From a virus: 33,609 nucleotides of DNA. The position numbers and the translations under genes are program-made. This document shows, one piece after another, positions 4,322-25,394 of the stretch. The notes under the pieces were generated by a model, which was given only the letters and a program-made list of their open reading frames with translations, ran no database searches and was not told where the DNA came from. Each line of letters begins with the position of its first letter. Position 1 is the first letter of the stretch. The stretch lies in the IMG/VR virus record IMGVR_UViG_3300042540_000917, positions 1-33,609 of that record, one strand, 5' to 3'.

Positions 4322-4348
4322 CTATCGGGAATGTACTAACTCTGATTA
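4322..4348 (-). promoter_or_regulatory. candidate WhiG/FliA-like promoter before the protease gene
   Basis: On the minus strand, TAAT, a 15 nt spacer, then CCCGATAG, ending 21 nt before the protease ATG. The known consensus for FliA/WhiG-type sigma factors is TAAA-N15-GCCGATAA. The match is 3 of 4 and 6 of 8. The site fills a 60 nt gap between portal stop and protease start. Use by the phage sigma factor at 27795 is inference. Confidence 0.4.
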
Positions 4349-4360
4349 AGTGAAACTATC

Positions 4361-6040
4361 TCACTTGTCCTTGGCTGGACCTCGACCAGGACCAGACTTG
4401 ACGGACTGACGGTTCATTCCGCCGCCACCCGTCTTGCCTCCACCGCGACGACCGTCGCCCTTGGTGTTGCCAGGAAGCGGGTCTGTAGGCTGGTCTTCTG
4501 GATCATTCGGATCAGCCTGATCACCAGGAGCAGCAGAGAACGGCACGTTGACCGGCGTGAAGATGTCGTCGTACTTCTCGGCTTCCATCTCCCGCTTCAT
4601 TGCCTCATCAGCCTCATCGATGTCGATCTCGGCCAAGGTGGTGTAGCGAGAAATGTCACCGCGGTCACGCAGATCCTGCAGATACACAGCGAAGTTCGGA
4701 TCGAAGTCCAAGCTGATACGGCTCGGGTAGAACTTCAGGTTCGGCTCCGCCTTCAGCTGATCGTTCCGCTCGAAAGTGGGCATGATGACATGCTTCATCA
4801 CATGATTACGGATGGCGCCACGTCGCGCCTCCATAGAACGAGCCACAACCCTGACCAACTTGGTCGAGTCGTCAGAGCCGGTGCCAGCTGATGCACGACC
4901 GGTCACGAACATCTGATAAAGACGAGATGCGATTCGTGAATCCAAGACACCATACCTGCTGGGGTCAAGTGTCTTGTCAACGTCCGGTGTGATGATCTCA
5001 ATCTTCACACGGTGATCCGAAATGATAATCGGGATACGGGCAGCGGTCTTCACCTGGGCAGCCAGACGATCCACTTCGCCAGCCTTCGCAGGCAGCGTGT
5101 CAGTACCCTTGGTGACCAGAAGAATGAAGTTCGAAGCACCAATCAGATGCTGGCGGTCCATCTCGCGAAGCTGCGCCTTCATGTCCATAAGGTCGAAGAC
5201 CGACTTCATGCGAACAGAAGGGAACCGCTGATAGCTAGAACGAGTTGCAGTCAGGCGACTCACCGCATCCGGCCGCATGAGATACAGATTGTCGCGACCA
5301 ACAGCTCGGCGATCACCAGTCTCCTGCTGGAGAGAGGTCATCTCGGTCTCGGGCACCTCATACTTCTTCGAGATGATCTTCGAAAACAGAGGATCGGTGC
5401 CAGTCTCGATCGCCTCGATCTCATCGCGATCAGCGATATAGGCGAGCTGTTCCTGACCGAAGATGAAGTTGCCCACCGGCACAATCTTCAGAGGGTCCAT
5501 GATCGCGAGACCAAGCGGGACCTGAAGACCGTCGAACGTCTTCTTGCGCTTCGTGCCGGTATCGGAACGACCAGACACCTTGTACGGAGAAGCAGCCCTG
5601 CCGAAAAACACCATGGGGTGGACCATCGAAGCGATGAACATCTCTCGCCACATCTCGCGCATACGCGCCTCGATGTCGATGTCCTCCATGATCTGGCGCC
5701 AAATGTCCTGCTCGTCCTGGTCATCGCACTCAACGACAATTCGGTTGAAGGCGAGCTGTTCGGTGGTGTCAATGATGTTCGAAGCAACATCATCAGACTC
5801 TGCGATCTCCTGAGCAATAGAGATCTGCGGGAAAACTCCGTGAGGGGCAAGGAATCGGTCCCTCTTGATGAGACCAGAATCGCTTCGCGGTTCCATGCTC
5901 TGGGACCAGCGGGTCAGAGCGGCAAGCTCCGGGTACTGGCGATTGATGGCATCAATGACTTCACCGTCGGCGATATCGGTGTCGTTCATAATGGTGATGT
6001 TGGACCCGTTTTCTGGGTCAAACTGAATCTCGGAACCCAT
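4361..6040 (-). CDS. portal protein
   Basis: A 559 aa protein that should form the dodecameric DNA channel at one capsid vertex and dock the terminase. It follows the large terminase gene with two short genes between, has the usual portal length, and shows a helical crown-like region (about 255-330, FPSVRMKSVFDLMDMKAQLREMDRQ, given here as the region name rather than a motif) before a mixed C-terminal half. The last 60 residues are low complexity, rich in Pro, Asp, Gly and Lys (GRRGGGKTGGGG), likely disordered. GGGGAGG precedes the ATG, which overlaps the stop of the upstream gene by one base (TAATG). Confidence 0.85.
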   Translation of the reverse strand: MGSEIQFDPENGSNITIMNDTDIADGEVIDAINRQYPELAALTRWSQSMEPRSDSGLIKRDRFLAPHGVFPQISIAQEIAESDDVASNIIDTTEQLAFNRIVVECDDQDEQDIWRQIMEDIDIEARMREMWREMFIASMVHPMVFFGRAASPYKVSGRSDTGTKRKKTFDGLQVPLGLAIMDPLKIVPVGNFIFGQEQLAYIADRDEIEAIETGTDPLFSKIISKKYEVPETEMTSLQQETGDRRAVGRDNLYLMRPDAVSRLTATRSSYQRFPSVRMKSVFDLMDMKAQLREMDRQHLIGASNFILLVTKGTDTLPAKAGEVDRLAAQVKTAARIPIIISDHRVKIEIITPDVDKTLDPSRYGVLDSRIASRLYQMFVTGRASAGTGSDDSTKLVRVVARSMEARRGAIRNHVMKHVIMPTFERNDQLKAEPNLKFYPSRISLDFDPNFAVYLQDLRDRGDISRYTTLAEIDIDEADEAMKREMEAEKYDDIFTPVNVPFSAAPGDQADPNDPEDQPTDPLPGNTKGDGRRGGGKTGGGGMNRQSVKSGPGRGPAKDK

Positions 6041-6354
6041 TAGTGGCCTCCCCTAGAAATGTCCCACTCGGTGGCGATGACGGCAGCGATCCTGGACCAG
6101 ACCTTGAACTGTCGATCGACCTCCGTCAGGAACGGATCGATCTCCTTGATCCTGAAGGTTTCCGCCTGCTTGTTCGTGCTGCGCACCAGCTGATTCCTGA
6201 TGAAGGAGGCTCGCGCGCTGTACGAACTCAGAAGCTTCATGATCTCCAGAGGGTCCATCGTCTTGAAGAGGCACATTTCCTCCAGGTAACCCTGGATTTC
6301 CTTATGCCAAGTCGCAAGAAGGTCTGGCAAAGTCCTACCAACTACTTCACTCAT
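6040..6354 (-). CDS. small helical protein of unknown function before portal
   Basis: A 104 aa all-helical protein (LPDLLATWHKEIQGYLEEM; later IDPFLTEVDRQFKVWSRIAAV), without Cys pairs beyond a single Cys or any membrane segment. Its stop overlaps the portal start by one base, so the two are translationally coupled. Genes between terminase and portal can encode small assembly or regulatory factors, but no family is recognised here. Confidence 0.75.
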   Translation of the reverse strand: MSEVVGRTLPDLLATWHKEIQGYLEEMCLFKTMDPLEIMKLLSSYSARASFIRNQLVRSTNKQAETFRIKEIDPFLTEVDRQFKVWSRIAAVIATEWDISRGGH

Positions 6355-6364
6355 GGGATACCTA

Positions 6365-6640
6365 TCAGCTTTCTAGTTCCGGTAATGAACACCAGAACGA
6401 CAACAAGTACACAAAGACCGCCACTTCGGAGTCATCCATCCTGGGAACCTTCAAAAACTCAGCGGCGCCACCGGACACCACCTGCCCTCCATGCAACGCC
6501 GGGTAACAAAACGAGGTGTCATACATTTCGTTGAGGCACGACACACACGAAACCACAGACCACTTGCCCTCCATGCAGAACATGCGCGCAGGAGCACCAC
6601 AGACTACGCAACCAACGTCAGAGATCGAGGATGATCGCAT
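6365..6640 (-). CDS. small zinc-ribbon protein overlapping the terminase 3' end
   Basis: A 91 aa protein with CVVC (residues 11-14) and CVSC (32-35), the spacing of a four-Cys zinc ribbon, followed by a hydrophobic C-terminal stretch (VAVFVYLLSFWC). I start it at the ATG at 6640, which lies inside the last codons of the terminase gene in another frame (23 nt overlap); the longer upstream reading is antisense-like, Arg/Ser-rich and unlikely. No strong Shine-Dalgarno is visible, so coupling to terminase translation is likely. Function unknown. Confidence 0.6.
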   Translation of the reverse strand: MRSSSISDVGCVVCGAPARMFCMEGKWSVVSCVSCLNEMYDTSFCYPALHGGQVVSGGAAEFLKVPRMDDSEVAVFVYLLSFWCSLPELES

Positions 6641-9600
6641 CTGAAGGTTGGAACGTATCCTCTTGAGACTTGAAGAACTCTTCAATGCTTGCTTGCTTCC
6701 ACGCCAGAGCAGCCATCCGACAACCATCCAGGCTGTGAAACGAGCCAGCTGAGTAAGTCTTCTTTCGGCCGTACATGTCAAGCGCGGACTTGTCATATGT
6801 GAAGGTCTGGCCCTTGAACTCACCGATCAGCTCCCTGTCCCATGGAAGCCGCAGCTTCTCGTCATCAACCAAGCTTCGGAGACAGTCCGAGCTATTGCCC
6901 GTGTAGTAGATCGTCCCGCTTCTCCGAGCCAGCCATGTGCCGCTCTCGGTGGTCGGACACCACACGACACCGCGGTGGATGCGCCTCTTGGTCTTGCCTA
7001 AAACGGTCGGTCGCACGAAATCTCGCTTCAGGATCTGGACAAGCCACATTCCCGACTTAGCTTGAGTGACGCTCACGGGTCGACCAGCCAGGACGCAGGC
7101 ATGCGCAAAAGCCTCAGCATGATGACGCTTCTTCTGGAGTAGCTGCCCCGGCCCGCTGCCATCGGCAGCCAGGGTAACTCTGATGAACTCATCCAGCTGG
7201 TCTTGCGTCAACGACGAAAGAAAGCTCAGAGAAACTTCTTTCTCAGGATAGGACACCACCTCTTCGAGCCCTCTTGCCGATTCGGCATTCAGCCAGAAGT
7301 TCACCATGCCATTCTTGATTTCGGACTCAGAGAACCCGGAATCACCGAACGCACCAAGCAGGTCCGACCGGATCTCGTCCACCAAGCCCGGGTTCACCTT
7401 CGCTGACTGGGCTATACCGAACCCACACGAAGAACCCGTCCTCCCGTGACCCCACCAGCCCTCGGTGTAGGCCCAGGCGACCGTGCGGACAAAGTCGTCC
7501 GAATAAATTGACTTCAGGGCAGCGCCACCGGGACGGACATTCGGAACTCCCGAACCATTCACGAGGGTTTCCGTCGTCCTCCACTCCCACCCCTTCGTAT
7601 CGTGATGGGTGAACCAACGATGATTCAACGTAGAGACGCTCGACATACCGCGCTTGCCCACCTCCAGGACTTCGCGCTCACCGTCGAACCGATTCATCGA
7701 CAGGACCTTGTCCCATCTCGACCGACCCGAGATCGGATCGAGTGCCAGGATCTCATCACCTTCCAGAACTTCGTGGTGAGACCTCCAGCCCTCCCGGGTG
7801 AAGCACTGTGTCTCCTCGTCCACGCAGTACTCCAAGACGTTCCTCTTGATCTCAGCCTTCTCATATCCCTTGGGGTCGTTCTCGTCGATATCCACCACAT
7901 CGTCGAAGTCGACGACCAGCTTCTCGGAGAAGTTGTAGCCCTTAATGCGATCCAAAATGAACTTCAAACGATCGTTGTTGCGAACATGGTTCTGGATATC
8001 CTGGAAGAGCGGCAAACCCAGACCCGTCTTATCCATCGCGAACGCCTGCGGCCGGTAATGGTCCGCCAACCACATAATGATCTGGACCTGATTCTCATGG
8101 GCCACACGCTTCAACATGATGCGCCCAATCAACTTGAGCTCAGTCTTAGCAACCTTCTTCTTGACCGCCCTCGTGCCAGTCGAAGCAGCCGCAGCCCACG
8201 CATTGCGATCAGCCATCTCCGCCGCATCCGGCTTATGCTCAGCGAAAATCATGATTGCCGTCGGCGCCTGGGTATAACCGATGTCCGCGCCAATCCAAAT
8301 ACGCTTATACTTGTTATGAGACGGCGGAGGATCAAGCAGCATCAAGGCGTTGCCATCGTGATCCCGGATAGCGGCATCATCGATATGGCACTCCCAATAC
8401 TCGTTGATGTTGTACTCGCTCGAAGTATCGGCATCACAGCACTCCATGAGACGATGCAACACAAACAGTGGGCTCTGAGCGTCACCATGGAGCCCAAGCA
8501 CGTTGCGTCGATAATCGGGCGAATCCTTGTGGCCGTACAGCTGAACCTTCTCAGCGCGCTCATCGTCATCCCACGTAGGGCGGTACATAGCCGGGTAATG
8601 GTGGACCTCCCAACCAGAATCAGGCTGCGTGTACTCATAGAACTTGTCACGGATACCACGGGTCACGCCGTGGGCTCGCCACTGGGCCTTGGACTCGCCG
8701 CGCTTCACGGTCTCAATGATTTCCAACCAGCCTGCTTCTGGGTAATCCTGGCCCTCGTCCAACTCCAACCAGATCGGGTGGATGTTGTGGCTCATGATCG
8801 AACCAGAAAGGTAAGAGTGAGCGTCCGTGATGATATTCACTACCTCGCGAGGACCCACATCGGTCACCGACTTGACCTTGCCCAACAGGTAGTCATCTAG
8901 TTCTGCTGCCTTGCCTGCGCCTGGCGGATAGATACCAAATCGGTAAGAAGGCTTGGGCTTAGACTTCAGCTCGACGCCCATGATTTCGGTGACCTTTGGC
9001 TGCACAACACAGTGGCCGGAACACTTCAGTCCCAAGGTCTGAGCAAGCAGCTGAAGCCCGTGAGCCAGGAATTCTGATGCAGTGCCAACCTGCCAGCGCT
9101 GCCTTTCCTTGTTCCAGTGGCCGTCTCCAGCAAGGTAGCCATCGAGCAATGCGCTGCGAAACTCGTCCTTCATAGACAAGACGAAGGCTGGCAACCTCTT
9201 ACCGTCTGCAAGCTTGCCGAAGTGCTCCAGAAGCCAAGCGTTGAACTCCGCACAGCTGACTTCAACCACGTCTGCGCTGGAATGCTCACGCTCGATCCTG
9301 CGGTACTTCAATCCCAAGACATCGAGATGATCCTCTGGCCTCGCCTTATCTGGGTGCGCCACCCAGTTCACTCGCCCACGCGTTCCCTTCTCGTCTGTGA
9401 GGTACCCGTCAGCTAGATAGAGGCCGACGAGCCACCAGAATGAAGCGGACTCCGGCTCAAAGCGAGTCGTATCTGGATACACCACGTCAAGGTGATCGAA
9501 CTCTGTCGGCGTAGCCCAGTAGAACTGATCATCAAGCAAATCCTCGGTGATGCCCCACCACATGCCCTGTGAGAAGTCGCGCTTGTGCTTTGAGTCAGCC

Positions 9601-10277
9601 AGATTGGAGGCGCCGTAAAAGCGGTGGTCCCACGACACCGTGATCGGCCACGAACCCTGCCCATTCACCTCGTAGCAGGTATCGGCAGTGTCCTTCTGGA
9701 CAGAGGTGACTTCACGCCAACCTTCGTGAGTCCAGACGGTGTCACCAGGGGCGATTTCGCCCGCCCGCTTGTGCCCCTCGGTAGTCAAAATGGGCGTTTG
9801 AGAATCGCTGCAACCCTTGATTCCCTTGCCGTCACGCTGGGGGATGCGCCCCATGATGCGCGCACCGTTCCTGAAGTTCATGTGGAACGGGCGGTGCTTG
9901 ATGCCGTTACGCCCGTGAGTCAGCATCTCGGCAGGTAGCCGGTTGTTGATGAACACGTTCTCGATGTTGTCCGTCAGAGCATCCAGGTGGTTGCCCTCAG
10001 GGGCCGTGACAACCATCTCCTGGCCAGCGTGGATGAACGGGAATGCGAGCGCCCGGAACCTGACCGACAGTGACTTGCCCGAAGAACGAGAACCCATCTC
10101 GATCTGGCGGGCATTGCTGTTCCGCCACCACGGCCACTGGAACGGCCACGCCCTGAAGCAGCCGTCGTCCGTGGTCTCATCTGTCACCATAAACTCGGCT
10201 TGGTCCAACCCTGACGGATCAGAGAGGATCGCCCAGAGATAGCACTCGCCCTCATCTGGGATCGAAATCGCAGCCAT
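6618..10277 (-). CDS. terminase large subunit interrupted by two inteins
   Basis: A 1219 aa precursor. Removing inteins at residues 156-498 and 818-1128 leaves 565 aa, the normal size of a phage packaging motor. The ATPase half has Walker A GSRSSGKS (62-69) and, directly after intein 1, Walker B IWLELDEG (502-509). The RuvC-like nuclease half has GADIGYTQAP, AMDKTG and, after intein 2, HSLDGCRMA, carrying the catalytic Asp residues. The enzyme packages DNA into the prohead through the portal and cuts concatemers. I start at the ATG at 10277, which overlaps the upstream stop (TGATG). Both inteins interrupt conserved motor regions, as inteins usually do. Intein 1 has an abnormal downstream residue (see findings). 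Confidence 0.93.
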   Translation of the reverse strand: MAAISIPDEGECYLWAILSDPSGLDQAEFMVTDETTDDGCFRAWPFQWPWWRNSNARQIEMGSRSSGKSLSVRFRALAFPFIHAGQEMVVTAPEGNHLDALTDNIENVFINNRLPAEMLTHGRNGIKHRPFHMNFRNGARIMGRIPQRDGKGIKGCSDSQTPILTTEGHKRAGEIAPGDTVWTHEGWREVTSVQKDTADTCYEVNGQGSWPITVSWDHRFYGASNLADSKHKRDFSQGMWWGITEDLLDDQFYWATPTEFDHLDVVYPDTTRFEPESASFWWLVGLYLADGYLTDEKGTRGRVNWVAHPDKARPEDHLDVLGLKYRRIEREHSSADVVEVSCAEFNAWLLEHFGKLADGKRLPAFVLSMKDEFRSALLDGYLAGDGHWNKERQRWQVGTASEFLAHGLQLLAQTLGLKCSGHCVVQPKVTEIMGVELKSKPKPSYRFGIYPPGAGKAAELDDYLLGKVKSVTDVGPREVVNIITDAHSYLSGSIMSHNIHPIWLELDEGQDYPEAGWLEIIETVKRGESKAQWRAHGVTRGIRDKFYEYTQPDSGWEVHHYPAMYRPTWDDDERAEKVQLYGHKDSPDYRRNVLGLHGDAQSPLFVLHRLMECCDADTSSEYNINEYWECHIDDAAIRDHDGNALMLLDPPPSHNKYKRIWIGADIGYTQAPTAIMIFAEHKPDAAEMADRNAWAAAASTGTRAVKKKVAKTELKLIGRIMLKRVAHENQVQIIMWLADHYRPQAFAMDKTGLGLPLFQDIQNHVRNNDRLKFILDRIKGYNFSEKLVVDFDDVVDIDENDPKGYEKAEIKRNVLEYCVDEETQCFTREGWRSHHEVLEGDEILALDPISGRSRWDKVLSMNRFDGEREVLEVGKRGMSSVSTLNHRWFTHHDTKGWEWRTTETLVNGSGVPNVRPGGAALKSIYSDDFVRTVAWAYTEGWWGHGRTGSSCGFGIAQSAKVNPGLVDEIRSDLLGAFGDSGFSESEIKNGMVNFWLNAESARGLEEVVSYPEKEVSLSFLSSLTQDQLDEFIRVTLAADGSGPGQLLQKKRHHAEAFAHACVLAGRPVSVTQAKSGMWLVQILKRDFVRPTVLGKTKRRIHRGVVWCPTTESGTWLARRSGTIYYTGNSSDCLRSLVDDEKLRLPWDRELIGEFKGQTFTYDKSALDMYGRKKTYSAGSFHSLDGCRMAALAWKQASIEEFFKSQEDTFQPSDAIILDL
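6894..7826 (-). other. intein 2 in terminase (LAGLIDADG type)
   Basis: Encodes precursor residues 818-1128 (311 aa). It starts at Cys (CVDEETQCFTREGW), has a block B with TLNH, and ends RRSGTIYYTGN followed by Ser, a complete class 1 splice set (Cys1, final Asn, Ser+1; the penultimate residue is Gly rather than His). The middle has two degenerate LAGLIDADG helices, VAWAYTEGWW and VTLAADGSG, each keeping one acidic residue, so the homing endonuclease may still cut. It interrupts the nuclease domain between EIKRNVLEY and SSDCLRSL. Confidence 0.9.
8784..9812 (-). other. intein 1 in terminase (LAGLIDADG type, +1 residue Ile)
   Basis: Encodes precursor residues 156-498 (343 aa). It starts CSDSQTPILTTEG, has block B with SWDH, and ends YLSGSIMSHN. 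Two good LAGLIDADG motifs (LVGLYLADGYL and LLDGYLAGDGHW) make an active homing endonuclease likely. The insertion point is GKGIKG / IHPIWLELDEG, right at Walker B. The residue after the final Asn is Ile (ATC at 8781-8783), not Cys, Ser or Thr, which class 1 splicing needs. Confidence 0.88.
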
Positions 10278-10801
10278 CAGCCACGACCCTTCATCTTCAG
10301 ATACCAGACAGTCGCAGTCTCCGGCGAATCGCTCAGAAACTTGTCCATCGTCAGCAGCACGAAAGCGACCCTGTACTCCAAGAAGTAGGACGGGTCCTTG
10401 CGGTACGCCTTCGCGACCTTCTCCATCGTCTCGAACGTCGGAGGAACCGTGCCGTTCAACAGACGGTGGACATGATCCTTCTGAAGATCGCACTTGTTGG
10501 CGATACCTCGGATGGACCGACCGTGAGTCAACGCCTTGAAAGCGGTCTTGAAATCAGACTCCGAATAGCTAGAACCGCTGAGCTTTGCCAGTTCAGCCTC
10601 AGCCAAAGGACGACTCAGAGCAGGCCGCTTCCCAGGACGCGAACGCTTACCCTCCGCCTTGAGCAGATCGCCCATGACATGAGTGAACACATCGCCGTCA
10701 GAGTCGAGAGCCCGTGACCAGTCGATAGATTCGAGAGCCGGATATGTCTGCTTGACCTTGCGGAGGTTCTCTTCCCACACAGCCTTGCGATCAGACCCCA
10801 T
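10277..10801 (-). CDS. HTH DNA-binding protein, small terminase candidate
   Basis: A 174 aa protein. Residues 96-140 form a helix-turn-helix (SIRGIANKCDLQKDHVHRLL, then TMEKVAKAYRKDPSYFLEYR) of the XRE/Cro kind; residues 40-85 are basic. It directly precedes the large terminase with a one-base overlap (TGATG), the classic place for the small subunit that recognises pac/cos DNA. A GAGGGAG Shine-Dalgarno lies inside the end of the upstream HNH gene. The gene at 11425 is a rival candidate for small terminase, so the call is tentative. Confidence 0.55.
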   Translation of the reverse strand: MGSDRKAVWEENLRKVKQTYPALESIDWSRALDSDGDVFTHVMGDLLKAEGKRSRPGKRPALSRPLAEAELAKLSGSSYSESDFKTAFKALTHGRSIRGIANKCDLQKDHVHRLLNGTVPPTFETMEKVAKAYRKDPSYFLEYRVAFVLLTMDKFLSDSPETATVWYLKMKGRG

Positions 10802-11400: not shown

Positions 11401-11424
11401 CAACATAGGTCTCATTAGAGAAGT

Positions 11425-12069
11425 CTAAAGCTCTCTCACCCACAAAGCCTGCTCCTTACGGAACGCAGCGTCGATCTCTTCAAACTTCTCGTTCTGGTCC
11501 AAGATCCACTGCATGATGTCATCCGAGGTCCTGTTGAACTCGCGGCGCTCATCTTCTGTCGAGTTGTGATAGAAGGTGATAATCCCGATCAGCTCCTTCC
11601 ACAGAGTGACGGCCGCGACGGCTTGGTCGTTGCGCATGATGCCGAACTGCTTGGCGCGCAGCTTCAGATTGTGAATGAAGTCGCCGACCGACTCGGCAGA
11701 CTCCTTGTCGCGGGTCGCCTTGTCGAGACCCAGAGCCTTCTTGACGAGGCGGATCTCCTTGGAGTTCTCAATGATGTTCTTGCGGATCTCGTCCACATTG
11801 ATGAGTTCTCCAGCGTAATCCCTCTCCTCGGAGAGCCACTGGGACCAGCGGTAGACCATCAGCTCCATGATGAGCAGCCGGTCAAGCTCCTGGAAGTCGG
11901 TGATGTTCTGGAAGATGTTGTCGTCCAGATATCGCTGTGCGACCTGTTCGTAGTATTCCTTCTCGCCGTCGGACAGCACCTTGATGGTGGCTCCCGAGGG
12001 GCAGGTGACCATGACGAGGTCTCGAACTTGGTCGAGCAGGTCATCTAGGTTTTCTGATTCATCTGGCAT
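11425..12069 (-). CDS. helical protein, alternative small terminase candidate
   Basis: A 214 aa almost all-helical acidic protein with no membrane segment. The middle (IRLVKKALGLDKATRDK at about 105-121) resembles the linker of P27-type small terminases, and two long helices follow (GDFIHNLKLRAKQFGI; DQAVAAVTLWKELIGI). It was probably adjacent to the gene at 10277 before HNH copy 2 was inserted: both this gene and the HNH gene end in WVREL. It has no clear Shine-Dalgarno; GGGCGATAC lies 10-12 nt before the ATG. Small terminase or another packaging protein are both possible. Confidence 0.7.
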   Translation of the reverse strand: MPDESENLDDLLDQVRDLVMVTCPSGATIKVLSDGEKEYYEQVAQRYLDDNIFQNITDFQELDRLLIMELMVYRWSQWLSEERDYAGELINVDEIRKNIIENSKEIRLVKKALGLDKATRDKESAESVGDFIHNLKLRAKQFGIMRNDQAVAAVTLWKELIGIITFYHNSTEDERREFNRTSDDIMQWILDQNEKFEEIDAAFRKEQALWVREL

Positions 12070-12108
12070 GATAATTGGTGTATCGCCCGTTGAGACAAAG
12101 AAATGAAG

Positions 12109-15972: not shown

Positions 15973-16648
15973 CTACCTGCTCCAGCTTAGAAGGCTTCAT
16001 GACATGCTTGCTGCAGTACCGACCGTCCCACAACAAGGCGCCACCGGCATTAGTGACACCCAATGACCATCCTACATCCTCGCCCTGCTTATGGAACACA
16101 TAATCAACCCCATAGGCAGAGCTTTTCATCATCTTGACGGCCATCAAAATGTCGACCTCCATCACGCCGTTGGAGTCCCGGCGATGAAACCCGGCCCATG
16201 GAGCCTTGCGCCCGTTATTGAAGATCGCGTAGGACGGGCAATCTCTACCTGGAGCCATGAATGCCTTGCCGCCAACAGCCCACACGTCAGAACGATTCAT
16301 GTGCTCCAACATGCCCTCGATGGCCTTGGGGTGCAGCAGAATGTCAGAATCAAGGCTCAAGAAATAGGTGGGCTCGATCTTGCGAACCTCACATAGAAGG
16401 AGATTTCTGAGCTCCACCATGTGCTGCAGGCGGTCGCTCCCCCATCTGCGAACATCCTCACGAGCTGGCTCATCTACAGCAATCACCGTTGAGTCATCCC
16501 AAGTGCAGCTCTCCAAATCGTCGACTCCGGCAACGAAGAGGAACTCTGGCACCAAACCAGCGTTCGCAGCAGATTTCAGGGCGTACTGCTTCCAGGTAGG
16601 CAGGATCCATTCCCGCTTACGCACCGGGCAACCGATCAGCAGCTTCAC
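15953..16648 (-). CDS. glycosyltransferase E (GT-A fold, DSD motif)
   Basis: A 231 aa protein starting at GTG (overlapping the upstream stop as GTGA). It has LLIGCPVRKREWILP, an ELRNLL helix, then YFLSLDSDILLHPKAIE, where DSD (118-120) is the metal/nucleotide motif, and GEDVGWSLGV (about 193-202) as a possible catalytic acid/acceptor segment. It resembles Anp1/GT62-like or generic GT2 enzymes more than the other four. First of the glycosyltransferases to be translated in the cassette. Confidence 0.8.
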   Translation of the reverse strand: MKLLIGCPVRKREWILPTWKQYALKSAANAGLVPEFLFVAGVDDLESCTWDDSTVIAVDEPAREDVRRWGSDRLQHMVELRNLLLCEVRKIEPTYFLSLDSDILLHPKAIEGMLEHMNRSDVWAVGGKAFMAPGRDCPSYAIFNNGRKAPWAGFHRRDSNGVMEVDILMAVKMMKSSAYGVDYVFHKQGEDVGWSLGVTNAGGALLWDGRYCSKHVMKPSKLEQVDVRSGY

Positions 16649-17199
16649 TGCTTAATCTCCCAGTTAGGGATGATGTCCTTGAACTCTCGCTCCATCGCCC
16701 GGTACTGCTTGTCATCCAAGATGACGAGAGTTTCCTTCGGGTAGTGGATGCCGAAGCGCTTGATCTTGATCTTGGACGGCTTGTCCATCCAACCCTTGAC
16801 CTCAAGCCAATAGTGGCTGCCGTCGGTGCGGGTGACCTTGAAGTCGGGCGTGTACTTGGTGATGCCACGCTTCACCGGGAAGTGAAACACCTCCGGCTCG
16901 TACTCCCAGAAAGAGATGTCGCCGGTCATAATAAGGATGTCGAGGAACCGGGCGGCGTTAGCCTCCCAACGGGAACGCATATAGATGTCACCAAGGTCCT
17001 CGCGCGCGCCCTTGACACCCCGGGCATGCGGGTTCACCCACTTGGAAGCAGGCTTCGTCTTGGGCCTATCGCCAAACGCACGCTGAAGATCAGCCTTGGT
17101 CTGCCGGGCGAGCTGCGCTTGGCACACCTTCGTGCAGGTCTTGCGGGTCGACTTGGCGGGCAGATCAAACTCGGTATCGCATATCACACAGGTAGCCAC
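16645..17199 (-). CDS. zinc-finger PD-(D/E)XK endonuclease
   Basis: A 184 aa protein with an N-terminal four-Cys finger (CVIC at 4-7; C22, C26) and a C-terminal restriction-endonuclease fold: RSRWEANAARFL (E79), YTPDFKV (D119) and WLEVKGWMDKPSK (E133, K135), followed by KIKIKRFGI. This E, D, E-x-K layout is the PD-(D/E)XK core. A terminator hairpin at 17242-17268 shows the gene must start after it, so I chose the GTG at 17199; a CAAA-N15-ACCGATG sequence just upstream may be its promoter. It may act in recombination, DNA processing or homing; overlap with the first glycosyltransferase is 4 nt. Confidence 0.72.
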   Translation of the reverse strand: MATCVICDTEFDLPAKSTRKTCTKVCQAQLARQTKADLQRAFGDRPKTKPASKWVNPHARGVKGAREDLGDIYMRSRWEANAARFLDILIMTGDISFWEYEPEVFHFPVKRGITKYTPDFKVTRTDGSHYWLEVKGWMDKPSKIKIKRFGIHYPKETLVILDDKQYRAMEREFKDIIPNWEIKQ

Positions 17200-18393: not shown

Positions 18394-20424
18394 TCAGCTA
18401 CTCGGCAGAAGGCAAGTATCTGTCGTACAGAAGCGCTCACCTTCGGCTTCCATACCATGAGCATACAGCGAAGCGATGTCAAGAGGCTTGATGTTCTCCA
18501 TCATCGCCAAAGCATCCTCTTCAGAGATCGGCTCATACGGTGCCTGAGCATACGAAGTACCTGCATCGTCGATGGGCAGGAACGAGACAGTCTTCAGCTG
18601 ACCCTCAAGAGAACGCAGCAGAGGTGCGATCTCCTTCTTCTCCTCGGGCTTGAAGCTCACCGTCACCGAAACCATGTTGTCAGCCCAGTAGCGCTGCGCC
18701 ATGGCAGCCAGATGAGCCTTCTCCCAGATCGAGACATCCAGCTCGCTGCGGACATCCAGACCACGAGTGGGGAATGTGGCAACAACCGTTGAGGACGGGT
18801 CCATCACGTCAGGTTCGACATGGTAGCCAGCCTTCTCGACCAGAGCCACGATCGGATCAGTCTTGTGGAGCCGCAGACGGCGCAGGAACCAGCCGGTCGT
18901 CGTCGGCCAATGCACGCCAGCCGTAGTGCCAGCAATCAGGCTCGTGGTGCCAGCAGGCTTCACCGTCGTGATCTTGATCGAGTCACGAACACCCAGCCAC
19001 TCGCTATACTTCGTGTCAACCGCGTCCAGATACTGGTATCCGTCGTCCATCCAAGACTGCATCAGATCCCAGCCACGGGACTCCACGAACTCGACGATGC
19101 CCGTCATCGACACACCGATGCGACGGTTCCGGGTGATGACCTCGTTGGTCTCAGCCCAGGTGCTCGGCATCAGCGTCACAGCCTTGGCGTACATGTAGGC
19201 ATGCTTGATCGACTTCTTGAAGTCATCGAATGTCTCATGACGAGACGGGTACAGCTCCACGAGGCAGCAGAACTCGTGAGATTCAAGCGAGATCTCCGCA
19301 CATGGATTCACGCCCTGCACCCGGTAATCCTTGTTGTTGGCCGGGTCAGCCATGCGGCCATATGCGCGCAGGAGATCAAGCCAGACAACGCCCGGCTCGC
19401 CGTTGAGAGCGATGCGCTCCACGAGATGATCCAGAGAGTCACCAGCGTTCACCACAACGCTGTTGTTCGAAGTCCAAGCCCAGCCATCGGGACCGGTACG
19501 CTCAGCGTTCTCCGGCAGCTCCCAGTTCTTCAGGTTGACGTAGTCCTCGTCATCCGGCTCTCCCAAAGCGATCAGAGCAGATCGACGGGCGCCGCCCGCA
19601 ACCACGGCCTTGCCGATCTTGTTCATGATGTCCACGATATCTCGGGAGCTGAGCTTCTCGCCGTGGCGGCCAGCGAACTGCTTGTCAATCGACTCGTGAA
19701 CTTCCATTAGCGGCCCAGGACCACTTGCGGTGCCACCGAACGAGCTGAGCGGTGACCCTGCAGGACGCACGTTGCTGTAATCGAACACGACAGGCTGGCG
19801 GTTCTTGAAGAAGTACGTTTCCAGCTGCACAGCAACACTCTCGGCCCAACCCTCACGGGTATCTGGCACGACAAACACCTCAGGTTCGCCAGTGGGCTCC
19901 CAGATCGTCAGCCTGCCTGCACCCCGGGTATCGAAACCGACACCGACACCGTTCATGCTCTGCTCCATGAGCCGTGCGAACGGCATGGTGGCCTCGTAGG
20001 CAGAATGAGTGCTCAACTTGTCAGTTGAGATGAAGCTGCAGTTGTTCAGCGAACTGTTCTGTCGATTCTCGTGGACATACTCGGTCCCCATCGCCCACAT
20101 GCCACGACCGGGCGGCGTCCACTTGAACTTGAACATCCGGTCGAACGCATCCTGCGCTGCCTTCTGAGCCTTGAACTCGTTCCACGGCGTGCGCTGATGC
20201 TTCGCATGATCCTTCAGGATCGAGTACATGCCCTCGATGCAGCGCGCGCACACATCAGCCCAGGTTTCCTTGGAGCCGTCTGCCTTCTTGCGGCTGTACT
20301 TCGTGAGGAACACCAGCTCAGAGAGCGAGTTCCCTCCTCCGATACCAAACCCCCAAGGAACTTGCTGATCCTTGTAACCGTTCTTGAAGTCCTCGGGCAG
20401 ATGGAATGAGAGAAAATCGGACAT
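18394..20424 (-). CDS. class II (cobalamin-dependent) ribonucleotide reductase
   Basis: A 676 aa monomeric adenosylcobalamin-dependent ribonucleoside-triphosphate reductase, reducing NTPs to dNTPs for phage DNA synthesis. The active site is complete: C129 (NNCS) and C386 as the reducing pair, thiyl-radical C375 in NPCAE with N373 and E377, and C-terminal C666/C671 (CTTDTC) for re-reduction. The spacings 375 to 386 and 666 to 671 equal those of the Lactobacillus leichmannii enzyme (408/419, 731/736). No subunit gene is needed, and activity does not depend on oxygen, but cobalamin must come from the host. GGAGG precedes the ATG; a promoter region lies at 20458-20484. Works with the dCMP deaminase at 23610 in nucleotide supply. 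Confidence 0.95.
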   Translation of the reverse strand: MSDFLSFHLPEDFKNGYKDQQVPWGFGIGGGNSLSELVFLTKYSRKKADGSKETWADVCARCIEGMYSILKDHAKHQRTPWNEFKAQKAAQDAFDRMFKFKWTPPGRGMWAMGTEYVHENRQNSSLNNCSFISTDKLSTHSAYEATMPFARLMEQSMNGVGVGFDTRGAGRLTIWEPTGEPEVFVVPDTREGWAESVAVQLETYFFKNRQPVVFDYSNVRPAGSPLSSFGGTASGPGPLMEVHESIDKQFAGRHGEKLSSRDIVDIMNKIGKAVVAGGARRSALIALGEPDDEDYVNLKNWELPENAERTGPDGWAWTSNNSVVVNAGDSLDHLVERIALNGEPGVVWLDLLRAYGRMADPANNKDYRVQGVNPCAEISLESHEFCCLVELYPSRHETFDDFKKSIKHAYMYAKAVTLMPSTWAETNEVITRNRRIGVSMTGIVEFVESRGWDLMQSWMDDGYQYLDAVDTKYSEWLGVRDSIKITTVKPAGTTSLIAGTTAGVHWPTTTGWFLRRLRLHKTDPIVALVEKAGYHVEPDVMDPSSTVVATFPTRGLDVRSELDVSIWEKAHLAAMAQRYWADNMVSVTVSFKPEEKKEIAPLLRSLEGQLKTVSFLPIDDAGTSYAQAPYEPISEEDALAMMENIKPLDIASLYAHGMEAEGERFCTTDTCLLPSS

Positions 20425-20457
20425 CGCTACCTCCGCGAAACTTAAGCCGGTAAGTTC

Positions 20458-20484
20458 GTATCGGCTTGCTATCGCGTCATTATA
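20458..20484 (-). promoter_or_regulatory. promoter region of the reductase gene
   Basis: Minus strand TATA, 15 nt, GCCGATAC: 3 of 4 and 7 of 8 matches to the WhiG/FliA consensus, ending 34 nt before the ATG. The same stretch contains TATAAT (20479-20484), a perfect sigma-70 -10, but without a good -35 at 17 nt. Either reading gives a leader with the Shine-Dalgarno. Choice between the two needs a mapped start. Confidence 0.5.
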
Positions 20485-20537
20485 GCGCGTCAGAAAGTTC
20501 CCTCATCACAAAGCTGAGCCGTCACATCAGCGGAAAC

Positions 20538-21047: not shown

Positions 21048-21507
21048 GACTAACTTTATCGGTCCACTCGTCCTCGTACTGCACCTCTCGATAAATCAGC
21101 TTCTGCATGTCGTTGAGGTATCCCCACTGGAAGCCCGCCAGAGCTTCGGCACCCAGTATTCTGGCCTCCCAACGACCATTCTGAATGCGAAGCTGGAGAA
21201 TGCGGGCCCCGAAATCGGCGAACACAACATCGCCCTCCGCATACACAATCACTGTCTCAGGAGCGTCGACATCACGTAGCACCTGAGCTGCAAGCCACAG
21301 CAGCTCCATCGAGACGATGCCCGTCAGCAGCCCAAAGTCGTCCTGCACCGCCCCCGGGAGCTGAACCAGCGCAGCACGATAACCCTCCAGCACAGAGCGG
21401 GAGCGGTCATGCGACTTCGACTTGCCCTTGTAGCGGCGGTTGTGTTGACCCGGCAGCTTTCTACGAACACGACTCACATGCTCGCTCGGCCGACGGGATG
21501 GCGTCAT
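21016..21507 (-). CDS. protein of unknown function
   Basis: A 163 aa protein. The first 45 residues are strongly basic (RRKLPGQHNRRYKGKSKSHDRSRS), suggesting nucleic-acid or protein binding; shown here as a region, it is the only striking element. The rest is a mixed alpha/beta domain (TVIVYAEGDVVFADFGARILQL). I use the ATG at 21507, which overlaps the upstream stop by one base (TAATG). The 3' end overlaps the HNH gene, so the natural C-terminus may have been altered by insertion. Confidence 0.7.
   Translation of the reverse strand: MTPSRRPSEHVSRVRRKLPGQHNRRYKGKSKSHDRSRSVLEGYRAALVQLPGAVQDDFGLLTGIVSMELLWLAAQVLRDVDAPETVIVYAEGDVVFADFGARILQLRIQNGRWEARILGAEALAGFQWGYLNDMQKLIYREVQYEDEWTDKVSHDKKMQNMPS
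21056..21063 (-). promoter_or_regulatory. WhiG-like -10 box at HNH copy 3
   Basis: ACCGATAA, 8 nt before the HNH start codon on the minus strand, within the coding end of the gene at 21016. Same octamer and nearly the same distance as at HNH copy 2. The -35 place does not match. Confidence 0.35.
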
Positions 21508-21785
21508 TAGATGATGTACCAACCAGACCCAGAGGAAACCAAGGAGATGCGATCCCCTGGCCCCAGCACAATCATCGAGTCTCCCTCAATGAGATTGTGA
21601 CTTCCAGCGTTGATCTGGAAACTGCCAGACCCTTCGACGTTACGCAGGTGGATCATCGTCTCAGCGTTCATCGCTGGCGGCAGTTCCACCACCACGTCTC
21701 CAGCGGTCGTGTTCGCAGACACGCAGTTGATGTGCGGCCTGAGAATGCCTATGGGTGACCCAGCTCGCAAGTACAAAGCAGCCAC
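21507..21785 (-). CDS. small beta-rich protein of unknown function
   Basis: A 92 aa protein from a GTG start at 21785, preferred because AAGGGGG lies 5 nt upstream. A TTG at 21848 would place the start inside a hairpin and is unlikely. Gly- and Ser-rich beta strands and the ending SSGSGWYII resemble the C-terminal strand of phage fibre or capsid-associated beta domains, but this is weak evidence. Translationally coupled to the gene at 21016. Confidence 0.62.
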   Translation of the reverse strand: MAALYLRAGSPIGILRPHINCVSANTTAGDVVVELPPAMNAETMIHLRNVEGSGSFQINAGSHNLIEGDSMIVLGPGDRISLVSSGSGWYII

Positions 21786-21836
21786 ACGAACCCCCTTGGA
21801 TTCTTTTGGTATCGGTTGCGGTCTAAACGTTATCGA

Positions 21837-21859: not shown

Positions 21860-21878
21860 CCGAAACGGTCCAAGTTTA

Positions 21879-21908
21879 TCATTAGGTACGACTCGCGAAC
21901 TTAGTCAA
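21879..21908 (-). promoter_or_regulatory. candidate sigma-70 promoter in a 234 nt gap
   Basis: TTGACT (21903-21908), 18 nt spacer, TAATGA (21879-21884). It lies in the gap between 21786 and 22019, which otherwise holds only the hairpin at 21837 and no gene. It would drive the two small genes at 21507 and 21016. Confidence 0.5.
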
Positions 21909-22019
21909 GTTCTCAGGCGCTGTGCCCTCACATAGCCGCGGTGGACCGTGCTCGGGTTTTCCCTGGTCGCGATTCAAATCATATAGTTAGTTGTGACCAA
22001 TTGACTATCTTTCGGCTCA

Positions 22020-22250
22020 TCAGTCATCTGTATCAAGGATAGCCTCAAAGATGACTTGATTGTCATACCTAATTGTTGGAGGATGAAGGATCATTTCAAG
22101 TGAATCGGTAACCATATTCAAGAGAGAGATGGCGACCCAAGGACTGAGCGTCCCAAGGTCCACCTGAGCTGGTCCTTCTTCGTCCCACATGATAGTCACC
22201 ATGTGGATACTTGGCAAGTCCTCATCTGAGATTTCTTCGTCATCAGCCAT
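22020..22250 (-). CDS. small acidic protein of unknown function
   Basis: A 76 aa acidic protein (starts MADDEEISDEDL, ends LDTDD). The middle (LGTLSPWVAISLLNMVTDSLEMIL) is moderately hydrophobic, more like a packed helix than a membrane segment. AGAAGGAG lies 6-7 nt before the ATG. It follows the phosphoesterase by 12 nt. No family recognised. Confidence 0.72.
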   Translation of the reverse strand: MADDEEISDEDLPSIHMVTIMWDEEGPAQVDLGTLSPWVAISLLNMVTDSLEMILHPPTIRYDNQVIFEAILDTDD

Positions 22251-22262
22251 CTCGATCTCCTT

Positions 22263-23558
22263 CTACAGAGCGACTCCGTTTGAATCTAGGGTGGCCCTGA
22301 ACTCTCTCCCTCGGAAGAGCGCCCAGCCTCCCCATATACTTATCGGCTCCACAGCCACGAGTTGGTCCCCCTCAGGCTGCCACCAGAACACCCAGATGCC
22401 CTGCTGCCAGTTCTCATGCTTCTTCATGGCCTGTCTGCCCTTGGAGGTGATGCCCGTCTTAGCGGACGGCACAGCCCCATCGATCTTGCAGAGGCAGCCA
22501 GCTGAGCCAGCGAAACTTGTCCGAGGACCGCCCTTGGTATGTCGTGTGGTCTGCAGCATCTCCTGGCGATGAATGTGGCCGTAACCGACCGAGACGCCAG
22601 AGGGAAGATGCTTGGCTGCGGTCCCACCTGGGGTTGACGAGTACAACTGGCCGTGCTCGAACCGCAAATGCTCGTTCACCCAGTATTCTGCGTCCGGGTA
22701 CGGGTCCAAGAACTTGATGTTGTTCTCATCGAAGCGGCAAAGGTTCTCGATCGAGACCACCGGCTGGGTTTCCCCGCCGCGCGCCAAGCCCAAGATGTCG
22801 GGGGCCTTGTCCACCAGAAAGTTGGTGAGTCGAGCCTCGTGGTTGCCGGAGATCCACACGATCTCGGCATCAGGAGCGATTGCGCGCTGCGTGGCACCCT
22901 CGACGGTGGCACGGTCGATGGCCAGCTGGGTGGTCTTGAACCCTGGCGCATTTCTGTGACTGCCGAATGCAGGGAGGTCCAGATTGTCGCCCACATTCAT
23001 GATGAGGTCCAAGCCGTAGCGCGCTTCTACTTCGGCAGCGATCTGGTGTGCCACGTCGATAGCAGCCTCATCGTGAGTGCAGATCTTCTCGTTGCCGTCA
23101 GCCCAGTATCCGATCTGCATGTCGGGGAACTTGATGCCAACCTTCCAGCCCTCGGGCTTTGTCTCCGCCTTCGAAACCTTGTAGTTGAGCTTGATCTTCG
23201 GTACCGGGCCACGTTCCAGAACGGGAATGTTCGTTGACGGCGTAACTTCGATCATCGTCGAGGAGGTCTCGGCGCCAGCAGCGGTCACCGAGTTCCTGAC
23301 CGCAACCTTCTTGACGACACCGATCTTGCTCAGTTCCTGAAGCTGCCCGACGAGATCGTCGCTCGACTCAACTTCAACCTTGACCGTTTCGTCAGACCAG
23401 TAGCGTTGACCGTATCTGGCGAGGGTGCTCGTCTTCAGTGGAGCGTACCCGAGTCCTTCCAGCCACTCGTTGATGGCTGATGCCCGAGAGCCGTCACGCC
23501 ACATCTCCTCCATGATCTCCCGCTGAGGATGATCGGCCACGCCCTTAGATTCAGTCAT
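22263..23558 (-). CDS. calcineurin-like metallophosphoesterase with N-terminal HTH-like region
   Basis: A 431 aa enzyme. Residues 10-56 look like a helix-turn-helix of the kind found in phage regulators (REIMEEMWRDGSRASAINEWL). Residues 138-345 carry the dimetal phosphoesterase motifs: PDMQIG (D146), NVGDN (189-192), SGNHE (238-241), and GHIH (328-330). The first motif is DxQ rather than the usual DxH. Likely activity is on nucleic acid or nucleotides; a repair-type exonuclease or phosphodiesterase is possible. I start at the ATG at 23558 (GAGGAG 6 nt upstream); 53 upstream residues would run into the divergent deaminase gene. It is the first gene of the leftward block. Confidence 0.82.
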   Translation of the reverse strand: MTESKGVADHPQREIMEEMWRDGSRASAINEWLEGLGYAPLKTSTLARYGQRYWSDETVKVEVESSDDLVGQLQELSKIGVVKKVAVRNSVTAAGAETSSTMIEVTPSTNIPVLERGPVPKIKLNYKVSKAETKPEGWKVGIKFPDMQIGYWADGNEKICTHDEAAIDVAHQIAAEVEARYGLDLIMNVGDNLDLPAFGSHRNAPGFKTTQLAIDRATVEGATQRAIAPDAEIVWISGNHEARLTNFLVDKAPDILGLARGGETQPVVSIENLCRFDENNIKFLDPYPDAEYWVNEHLRFEHGQLYSSTPGGTAAKHLPSGVSVGYGHIHRQEMLQTTRHTKGGPRTSFAGSAGCLCKIDGAVPSAKTGITSKGRQAMKKHENWQQGIWVFWWQPEGDQLVAVEPISIWGGWALFRGREFRATLDSNGVAL

Positions 23559-23597
23559 ACACGTCTCCTCGACGTAGATTCGTCGCTGGATGCATGA

Positions 23598-23628
23598 TAA
23601 ACTATCGGCATGAACAATCATCACATAA
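23598..23628. promoter_or_regulatory. divergent promoter region between leftward and rightward arms
   Basis: Rightward: TAAACT (23598-23603), then ATCGGC, then the deaminase ATG, the 6 nt spacing of leaderless promoters; the -35 (TAGATT) is weak. Leftward: GCCGATAG (23602-23609), 7 of 8 to the WhiG/FliA -10, with TTAT 15 nt upstream (2 of 4), placed 43 nt before the phosphoesterase start. The two -10 elements overlap, so use of one should block the other. Confidence 0.45.
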
Positions 23629-24074
23629 AGTGGCTGCACGCATGCGACGCCATGGCGACGATCATGGGCAAATGTTCCAAAGCCCAGTATTTCGCCTTCG
23701 TTCTCGACAAAGACCATCGGGTACGAGGCTGCGGGTACAACGGGACACCGAGCGGCACCATTGACTGCATCGACGGTGGATGTCCTCGTGCGACCAGCGG
23801 CGTCGCACCATCAACCCCATACGATCACGGTGACGGGTTGTGCTGGGCGGTCCACGCAGAAGCGAACGCCCTGTCCGGTATCGACCGGTCGATTCTGACA
23901 TCCTCGACACTGTTCGTGAACGGCATGACTTGCCTTGGCTGCGCAAAAACCATTGCCAACTCGGGGCTCCGTGAGGTAGTCTGCTACGAAGAAAACCGTT
24001 CAGATACACCGCTTGTGAGAGATCTGTTCTCGCGATGCGGCATCCACATGACCAGCTACACGAAAGAGGCGTGA
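23610..24074 (+). CDS. deoxycytidylate (dCMP) deaminase
   Basis: A 154 aa zinc hydrolase that converts dCMP to dUMP, feeding dTMP synthesis. It has HAEANAL (H82, catalytic E84) and CLGC (C108, C111) binding zinc, with the upstream GYNGTPSG substrate loop (42-49) typical of the family. The usual Pro before the first Cys is Thr. Extra Cys residues at 53 and 58 may bind a second, structural zinc. It has no Shine-Dalgarno and a -10-like TAAACT 6 nt upstream, so a leaderless mRNA is expected. First gene of the rightward arm. Confidence 0.93.
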   Translation: MNNHHIKWLHACDAMATIMGKCSKAQYFAFVLDKDHRVRGCGYNGTPSGTIDCIDGGCPRATSGVAPSTPYDHGDGLCWAVHAEANALSGIDRSILTSSTLFVNGMTCLGCAKTIANSGLREVVCYEENRSDTPLVRDLFSRCGIHMTSYTKEA

Positions 24075-24079
24075 CCCAA

Positions 24080-24340
24080 ATGGTATTGAAGAAGAAGGAA
24101 GCGAAGTTCCAGCCCAGCGGCGAGATCAAGCGGATCGTGTCGCTCGGTGGCGGCTCTCACGCCTACGTGTTCGACCTCAATGGGAAGACGCATCGCTTGA
24201 AGACTGACAGCGACGAGATCGTCACGCTGCTCCGTGACATGAACGAGCAGACGGGTGGCAAGACCCGTGACGAACTGCTCAAGCTCGGCTGGACCGACCT
24301 CATCATGAAGATGGAAGCAGATGCCACAGAAGACGAATGA
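24080..24340 (+). CDS. small protein of unknown function
   Basis: An 86 aa protein starting 5 nt after the deaminase stop, with AGAGG about 10 nt upstream. The N-terminus is Lys-rich, followed by beta strands (AYVFDLNGKTHRLKTD) and an acidic helical end. No family recognised. An upstream in-frame ATG at 24035 lies inside the deaminase gene and is not preferred. Confidence 0.7.
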   Translation: MVLKKKEAKFQPSGEIKRIVSLGGGSHAYVFDLNGKTHRLKTDSDEIVTLLRDMNEQTGGKTRDELLKLGWTDLIMKMEADATEDE

Positions 24341-24497
24341 TGAGGACCTCATAACAGGGGTCTTCCTGCCACGAGGGCAGTGCGTTCTGCCCCGAGGCTT
24401 TGCGGACACCCGCGAGCAAGTCGCCTTCGATCGAGTCTCCGAGCGTAACCTCAACCAGTACCTCTGGCTACTCAACTACCTGCCGGTCTCATGCTAG
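24321..24497 (+). CDS. 58 aa protein of unknown function
   Basis: Starts at an ATG inside the end of the preceding gene (20 nt overlap) and fills an otherwise empty stretch. The sequence begins MPQKTNDEDL and ends WLLNYLPVSC. A GAAG-rich stretch lies upstream. Its fit into a tight chain of overlapping small genes is the main support. A 16-codon reading frame (24491-24541) then links it to the next gene by stop/start overlap. Confidence 0.55.
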   Translation: MPQKTNDEDLITGVFLPRGQCVLPRGFADTREQVAFDRVSERNLNQYLWLLNYLPVSC

Positions 24498-24537
24498 AGC
24501 TGGCGACACGACGCACCCACGTAAAGCTGATCAACAG

Positions 24538-24720
24538 ATGATCGACTACTACACGCTGAGTACCGTGTACTCAGGCAGCGAAGTGGTACTCCACATCACC
24601 ATACGCCACTCGACCCTCGAATCGTTCGCGAGACACAGAAGTACCTTCTACGTCGAAACCGAGTGGGCTCCCCGGTGGGAGGTCAGAGCCTACCGGAACT
24701 GGATGATCCTGGCAGCATGA
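24538..24720 (+). CDS. 60 aa protein of unknown function
   Basis: Starts MIDYYTLSTV at an ATG overlapping the stop of a 16-codon frame (ATGA). Predicted beta strands (EVVLHITIRHS; FYVETEW) and aromatic-rich. Overlaps the next gene by 4 nt. No family recognised. A longer reading from 24400 is in the frame but runs through the preceding gene. Confidence 0.58.
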   Translation: MIDYYTLSTVYSGSEVVLHITIRHSTLESFARHRSTFYVETEWAPRWEVRAYRNWMILAA

Positions 24721-24923
24721 TATTTCGGATACCCACTCGGTGGGACCTGAGCTGGGGACACGAAGTCAGCTGGTCGGTGCAGGAGATCACCGAGCTGGCA
24801 CCTGAGAGGCGAGGAATGTACAAGCTCAGGTACAAGTTCTTCGTCTTACCAGTTGGGTGGGACGAGTCGGCCGAAGACTTCAGACTGCCCGGCCAGTACA
24901 TGGTACTAGCAGTAGGAAGATGA
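24717..24923 (+). CDS. 68 aa protein of unknown function
   Basis: Starts MIFRIPTRWD with an ATGA overlap to the previous stop. Trp- and Arg-rich, with a beta-rich middle (MYKLRYKFFVLPVGW). A hairpin with a T-rich tail follows, marking the end of this run of rightward genes. Its last 18 nt overlap the convergent gene at 24906. Confidence 0.6.
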   Translation: MIFRIPTRWDLSWGHEVSWSVQEITELAPERRGMYKLRYKFFVLPVGWDESAEDFRLPGQYMVLAVGR

Positions 24924-25091
24924 ACCGGGTCTCTTAAGGCCCGTTCTTTCGTAATCCTCTGGAGTCGCTTCCCGAGTCGTCACCTCAGAGGACTCTCCTT
25001 CAAGCGCTCTCTTAAAGTTGAGAGAGCTGCGCTCTTGCTGCTTCTTGCGCCGCTTCTCACGACGAGTGGAATTCTTCTTCGGTACACCCAT
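24906..25091 (-). CDS. small basic protein with bL32-like N-terminus
   Basis: A 61 aa leftward protein. Residues 1-25 (MGVPKKNSTRREKRRKKQ) closely recall the N-terminus of ribosomal protein bL32 (typically MAVPKxKxSxxRRxxRR), but the Cys4 zinc ribbon of bL32 is absent; the rest is acidic/polar and ends GLKRPGSSSYC. AGGAG lies 5 nt before the ATG at 25091. Similarity is from memory of the bL32 pattern and could be chance in a Lys/Arg-rich peptide. Confidence 0.55.
   Translation of the reverse strand: MGVPKKNSTRREKRRKKQQERSSLNFKRALEGESSEVTTREATPEDYERTGLKRPGSSSYC
24926..24950 (+). terminator. hairpin terminator
   Basis: A 6 bp stem (CGGGTC with GGCCCG, one G-U pair, 6 nt loop) followed by TTCTTTC, 2 nt after the last rightward stop. 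It lies inside the convergent gene at 24906. Confidence 0.6.
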
Positions 25092-25109
25092 CAGGACTCC
25101 TGGCAGCAA

Positions 25110-25394
25110 GGATAAAGTAAGACGGACCTCTCCTTAAGCCTCGGAGTTCGTCTCTTTCTTCTTCTTCTCATCTTCGGGGCCTTCCAAGGCCCCCCGACTC
25201 GTTTCTCGTTCTTGCCGGGGTTCGTCTTAAGTCTAACAAGCCGTTTTCAAAACTCATCACAGAACCAGCATTTTCTTGCTGTCAGAGACAAGGATTCTGG
25301 CCGAGAGCCCTTTATTTGCAAGGGTTTCGGCTCCCAAGAAATTTCTTGCTGCCAAGGGATCGGAATCGGCCACGAACCAGCCGATATCCCTTGG
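25110..25394. other. 285 nt gene-free stretch rich in secondary structure
   Basis: No gene is supported here on either strand. It holds: an imperfect hairpin at 25122-25155 followed by a T/C-rich run; a perfect 8 bp stem GGGGCCTT/AAGGCCCC at 25176-25193; a perfect 14 bp palindrome CAAGAAATTTCTTG at 25335-25348; a hairpin at 25301-25331 (CCGA..CCCTT / AAGGG..TCGG); and a large hairpin at 25352-25394 whose 9 bp base stem (CCAAGGGAT/ATCCCTTGG) touches the next start codon. Two imperfect direct repeats begin TTTCTTGCTG at 25272 and 25342. Confidence 0.7.

Follow-up and report, generated by a model that had tools for sequence, protein, structure and literature searches.

Which sigma factor reads the CCGATA boxes that stand before genes of the viral record IMGVR_UViG_3300042540_000917? 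The window, meaning the whole stretch of 33,609 nucleotides analysed here, is the complete 33.6 kb viral record (GC content 56%), itself probably a fragment, and among its genes is one for a FliA/WhiG-family (sigma-28) factor. An original prediction had read the boxes as possible promoters for this factor, which together would form a phage regulon. We hold, at a probability of roughly 85%, that the phage sigma factor diverts the RNA polymerase of the host to promoters of the phage and so forms such a regulon, the window's own sigma factor being the reader of the boxes to which the sequence points. The regulon interpretation is supported by the enrichment of the boxes, the spacing of their -35 elements, the family of the sigma factor, the scarcity of sites in genomes without it, and a parallel change of the box and of region 2.4 of the sigma factor.

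Candidate promoters in the window

The hexamer CCGATA occurs 22 times in the window, against 8.4 times in dinucleotide shuffles, none of which (0/100) reached 22. Seventeen copies lie on the leftward strand, close to the 15 or so formerly counted by eye, and all six boxes listed at that time are present at their coordinates (Table 1). Within the 60 nt upstream of the 44 predicted genes, CCGATA is found six times on the coding strand and never on the opposite strand; it is the top hexamer of these regions, above ribosome-binding sites, the runner-up reaching five. A Markov null gave a mean of 0.39 and a maximum of 3 for the same count (2000 runs). One further upstream copy is added when the start of the gene for HNH nuclease 2 (HNH-2) is moved to ATG 11385, which is probably its start because the protein there begins MTK..C..C like that of HNH-3.

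The consensus of WhiG and flagellar sigma factors combines a -35 element TAAA with a -10 element GCCGATAA (PMC8325347), and in Escherichia coli it reads TAAAGTTT-n11-GCCGATAA, with transcription starting 6 bp past the -10 octamer (PMC2859248). A -35 match at exactly 15 nt, TAAT or TATA, had been claimed for two of the six boxes; once the 15-16 nt of published spacers are allowed, all six carry T..A. The bipartite pattern T..A-N15/16-NNCGATA occurs seven times in the upstream regions of the window (shuffle mean 0.18; 0/1000 shuffles reach seven), twice at N15, five times at N16 and never at adjacent spacings, so that the enrichment over shuffled sequence, proposed earlier as a check, is borne out by both the Markov null and the bipartite count. 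Scanning the whole window returned 10 such sites, eight of them directly upstream of predicted starts. The exact consensus TAAA-N13-16-GCCGATAA has zero copies in the window, and unconstrained motif discovery in 22 window upstream sequences, too small a set, gave no clear motif.

Table 1. Candidate promoter elements and identified genes of the window
Feature	Position	Strand	-35 element	Spacer	Remarks
-10 box CCCGATAG	4322-4329	-	TTAA 4346-4349	N16	Upstream of gene 3461-4300 and head genes
-10 box ACCGATAA	11393-11400	-	TCTA 11416-11419	N15	HNH-2
Extra -10 core CGATA (GGCGATAC)	12081-12085	-	TTCA 12104-12107	N16	Upstream of gene 11425-12069; absent from earlier list
-10 box GCCGATAC	20458-20465	-	TATA 20481-20484	N15	Ribonucleotide reductase
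-10 box ACCGATAA	21056-21063	-	TGCA 21080-21083	N16	HNH-3; -35 weak apart from T and A
-10 box ACCGATAC	21809-21816	-	TCGA 21833-21836	N16	Gene 21507-21785 (GTG after AAGGGGG)
-10 box GCCGATAG	23602-23609	-	TTTA 23626-23629	N16	Metallophosphoesterase
-10 box ACCGATAA	25822-25829 (core 25824-25828)	+	TCCA 25802-25805	N16	Gene 25838/25865-26245, start codon uncertain; absent from earlier list
Possible box GCCGATAT	25380-25387 (hexamer 25381-25386)	+			C of CG 13 nt before ATG 25395; lower confidence
FliA/WhiG-family sigma factor	27795-28544	+			249 aa; regions 2 and 4 above Pfam cut-off
Class II (B12-dependent) ribonucleotide reductase	18394-20424	-			Promoter target gene
Metallophosphoesterase	22263-23558	-			phrog_20266, E 5e-54; promoter target gene
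dCMP deaminase	23610-24074				
Putative major capsid protein	1181-2122	-			Downstream of the 4322 promoter; family profile vs Gp27 major capsid 6wkk, E 0.0054 only
Terminase-like gene	6618-10277				1219 aa
Helix-turn-helix protein	10277-10801				
Helix-turn-helix protein	27048-27500				

Two further sites named in the original prediction stand in part. The rightward box before 25395 is present and has no T..A -35, whereas CAAA-N15-ACCGATG before the start at 17199 is present and misses the T and final A of the core; both are weaker sites. Upstream of the gene 16645-17199, a strong hairpin with a T-rich tail (GGCCCCACACG..CGTGTGGGGTCTTT) lies just before this CAAA-N15-ACCGATG and GTG 17199.

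The C of the CG stands 13 nt ahead of ATG 11385 in the HNH-2 box, which falls within the longest open reading frame, 8 nt before 11385, and 14 nt ahead of ATG 21047 in the HNH-3 box; both messengers are probably leaderless. Altogether, leaderless messengers are possible for four genes of the window, whose start codons lie 13-14 nt past the C of the CG. Of the 16 GCCGAAG boxes of one relative, G016, six precede a start codon by exactly 13 nt, and none lie at nearby offsets. A general leaderless rule was rejected, the offset being clear in G016 and weak in the pooled genomes because of codon-phase bias.

The sigma factor and its phage family

The protein scores 216.8 bits against the family model TIGR02479 (FliA_WhiG; cut-off 189.6), as do relatives at 221.8 and 217.1 bits, and stays below the cut-offs of the WhiG equivalog NF004935 (244.1 vs 343 bits) and of the FliA subfamily PRK06986 (NF005413; 196.8 vs 201 bits). 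Its earlier description as WhiG/FliA-type is therefore correct for the family but does not extend to the WhiG equivalog. The closest solved structures are WhiG 6pfj and FliA 6pmi. Residues D81, R84, R91 and R94, which we take to be those of FliA (in its numbering) with a role in -10 binding, are all kept in the window sigma factor and in the relatives G001-G007.

With the sigma factor alone as query, no match was obtained in viral contigs, and the relatives were found via the ribonucleotide reductase and the capsid. The reductase search returned seven relatives at ~80% protein identity, all of which have a sigma factor (36-38% identity), and capsid and sigma profiles raised the total to 17 sigma-carrying records, near-duplicates counted. 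These records represent a phage family with a common capsid, ribonucleotide reductase and FliA/WhiG-family sigma factor. The identity of the sigma factors is far lower than that of the reductases (80%) and capsids (~61%), and GC content is 56% in the window against 38-43% in the relatives; the sigma factor appears to evolve fast or to have been replaced.

The promoter geometry recurs in this family. When CGTTA-type boxes of the seven relatives were collected blind to the -35 element, a T was found 21 nt before the C of the CG in 36 of 47 and an A 18 nt before it in 33 of 47, which is the exact register of TAAA-N15-GC-CGATAA. Across all spacings in the relatives, T..A stands above the background only from -20 to -22 and is flat at in-gene copies: it accompanies 33% of CGATA sites at -22 and 20% at -21, and for CGTTA sites the figure at -21 is 60%, compared with ~6-8% elsewhere and at in-gene copies. 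Motif-blind counts of upstream hexamers are topped by CCGATA in G042, GCCGAT/GATACA in G015, ACGTTA in G014, CGTTAA in G004 and TGCCGA/CCGAAG in G016. At the positions equivalent to individual window boxes, relatives carry AGTCGTTTAG or AACCGTTTAC (box 4322), G(T/C)CGTAAA (box 20458) and, at the metallophosphoesterase gene, (G/A)(T/C)CGTTA.

Bipartite counts in the relatives, taken as CGATA plus CGTTA sites with T..A at N15/N16, gave 66 forward and 6 reverse sites (5.4 expected) in 14 sigma-bearing genomes, or 1.79 per kb upstream, and 3 forward and 5 reverse sites, or 0.20 per kb upstream, in three long genomes without a sigma factor above the Pfam cut-offs. GX15bay (MK557849, complete), the sole annotated public relative, has one forward and one reverse site; no sigma factor was found in the 50 of its 52 kb that were searched, nor in the annotation of the remainder. 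The fragments G042, G026 and G018 carry the boxes while their contigs show no sigma gene; a DWVPR sigma factor is predicted for the part that they miss. The comparison of relatives that the original prediction had called for thus finds promoters of the same geometry in most sigma-bearing genomes and few in the three long genomes without the sigma factor.

Some promoters of the relatives are combined with terminators. In G001 (reverse, ~45.2 kb), G003 (~30.0 kb) and G004 (~43.2 kb), an intrinsic terminator has a hairpin (-20 to -23 kcal/mol, z about -5) whose loop is the -35 element (TTTAAA, TTTAAT, TTAAAT), and the -10 box CCGTTAT comes after the T-run. Such a composite terminator-promoter would end one gene block exactly where the next starts. 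Relatives also have a terminator hairpin between the sigma gene and the reductase, for example at 17.2-17.3 kb of G001 in reverse orientation; its T-run and the -35 element of the reductase promoter overlap. The 163 kb genome G029 shows enriched upstream hexamers TAACCGAA without a -35 element and without a recognisable sigma gene, which is unexplained.

Parallel change of the -10 box and region 2.4

The window, G010, G012, G015, G036 and G044 share DWVPR in region 2.4 with E. coli FliA; G001-G007, G011 and G014 have DWAPR there, and G016 has DPLSR. CGATA and CGTTA sites stand at 23:1 with DWVPR sigma factors and at 7:35 with DWAPR sigma factors (Fisher P 1e-10). All DWAPR members fall in a single clade (support 93/98), and G011, an early branch, has both CGATA and CGTTA boxes. 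On balance, we lean towards a history in which the phage family adopted a sigma-28 developmental sigma factor as a switch and sigma factor and promoters then changed jointly, from an ancestral CGATA to CGTTA with the V-to-A change (DWVPR to DWAPR), and to GCCGAAG with DPLSR. That residue 89 causes the change of box is a guess.

G016 (35.6 kb, 63% GC), with its DPLSR sigma factor, prefers GCCGAAG, and its boxes are TGCCGAAG; these are a possible third version of the promoter.

Weighing the alternatives

Several points count against a phage-read regulon. Genes were called with a simple home-built caller. Just the T and A of the -35 element are kept, and the boxes are not perfect matches to TAAA/GCCGATAA. 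By strict count, the sigma-bearing fragments G006, G010 and G044 have zero sites, and G029, without a recognisable sigma factor, has 3 forward and 1 reverse sites vs 0.5 expected for the pool, a slight unexplained excess. Because the DWAPR group is one clade, the change of box and region 2.4 represents one event and not a replicated correlation, and the Fisher test counts related genomes. Finally, if the host has a sigma factor of this class, that factor could recognise these boxes as well.

Taken to its full length, this last point becomes an alternative in which the boxes are sigma-28 promoters read by a host FliA/WhiG-type factor, while the phage sigma factor mainly reprogrammes host genes. 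The window boxes do fit the bacterial FliA/WhiG consensus, which host WhiG shares (PMC8325347), and the sporulation-type sigma factors of Bacillus phages alter host expression (PMC9429907). However, motif density tracks the presence of the phage sigma factor within one capsid family, and the -10 letter shifts along with the phage sigma factor, where CGTTA would misfit a standard host FliA/WhiG; we consider this alternative unlikely. Far less probable still is that the boxes are not -10 elements but operators to which some other phage protein binds, for example a helix-turn-helix repressor: two helix-turn-helix proteins are indeed encoded in the window (Table 1), but a one-sided T..A at exactly 15-16 nt and an orientation that always faces the gene are features of promoters and would be unexpected in an operator. 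That codon use or composition, plus a few chance matches before starts, produced the surplus of CCGATA is hardly credible, since the 13 of 22 hexamers that lie within genes on the coding strand and the existing codon-phase bias are set against the strand asymmetry, the shuffle tests (the bipartite one contradicting it directly), the fixed -35 spacing and the recurrence in other genomes.

Proposed mechanism

In the phage-read regulon that we favour, the sigma gene and the early rightward genes would be switched on from host sigma-A-like promoters; TTGCCA-N17-TATGTT upstream of 27048 is sigma-A-like by consensus match only. Once made, the sigma factor would bind host core RNA polymerase and take it to promoters built as T..A - 15/16 nt - NCCGATA. 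These would serve the block of head genes, the genes for the ribonucleotide reductase and the phosphoesterase, two free-standing HNH nucleases and a handful of small genes. The regulon is probably of the middle/late class, a timing that we infer because the sigma factor must be made beforehand.

Other features of the window

Genes run leftward over ~1-23.7 kb, rightward over 23.6-30.4 kb and leftward again beyond. Besides the genes of Table 1, three endonuclease-VII-like HNH genes and glycosyltransferases were identified. The terminase-like gene carries two insertions, at about residues 156-499 (with a LAGLIDADG match) and 821-1128, which are missing from 540-aa relatives and are probable inteins; ribonucleotide reductase genes are interrupted too in G006, G012, G014 and G015. 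The earlier label of 'protease' for gene 3461-4300 found no confirmation, and AlphaFold models were too poor for use both for this gene (predicted local distance difference test, pLDDT, 37) and for the capsid (pLDDT 34). A capsid search across bacterial genomes for the host gave no match.

Significance and comparison with known systems

How a sigma factor switches its promoter without breaking the entire regulon is an open question. This phage family has a small regulon of ~10 sites per genome, whose -10 box exists in two or more natural versions, probably three, with matching sigma factors, and would, if the reading is true, offer a natural series of a joint shift in the specificity of a sigma factor and its regulon. 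The analysis further supplies candidate promoters, along with a predicted split into early and later genes, for a group of uncultured phages whose genes are mostly unknown.

The phages SPO1 and T4 have sigma factors that drive middle/late phage promoters. Phage sigma factors with their own promoters are likewise known from, e.g., phiEco32 and 7-11 (PMC4331800), and the proposal made here resembles them in that a phage sigma factor comes first and phage-specific promoters for later genes follow. In contrast, their sigma factors fall outside the flagellar/developmental sigma-28 class, whereas the window promoter is of the bacterial sigma-28 type. Our literature search turned up no sigma-28-class factor in a phage together with promoters for it, a negative that counts only as weak evidence.

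With the FliA/WhiG systems (E. coli FliA; Streptomyces and Rubrobacter WhiG), the window shares a sigma factor that passes the family model, the CCGATA -10 element, T..A at 15-16 nt and the arginines of region 2.4. It differs from them in that the sigma factor is phage-encoded and scores under the WhiG equivalog and FliA subfamily cut-offs, the sites lie before phage genes, the -35 element is cut down to T..A and a sister clade uses CGTTA. As with the sporulation-type sigma factors of Bacillus phages (PMC9429907), a bacterial developmental sigma factor is carried by a phage; those factors act on host sporulation, their use of phage promoters being unconfirmed, whereas in the window the sites lie on the phage genome itself.

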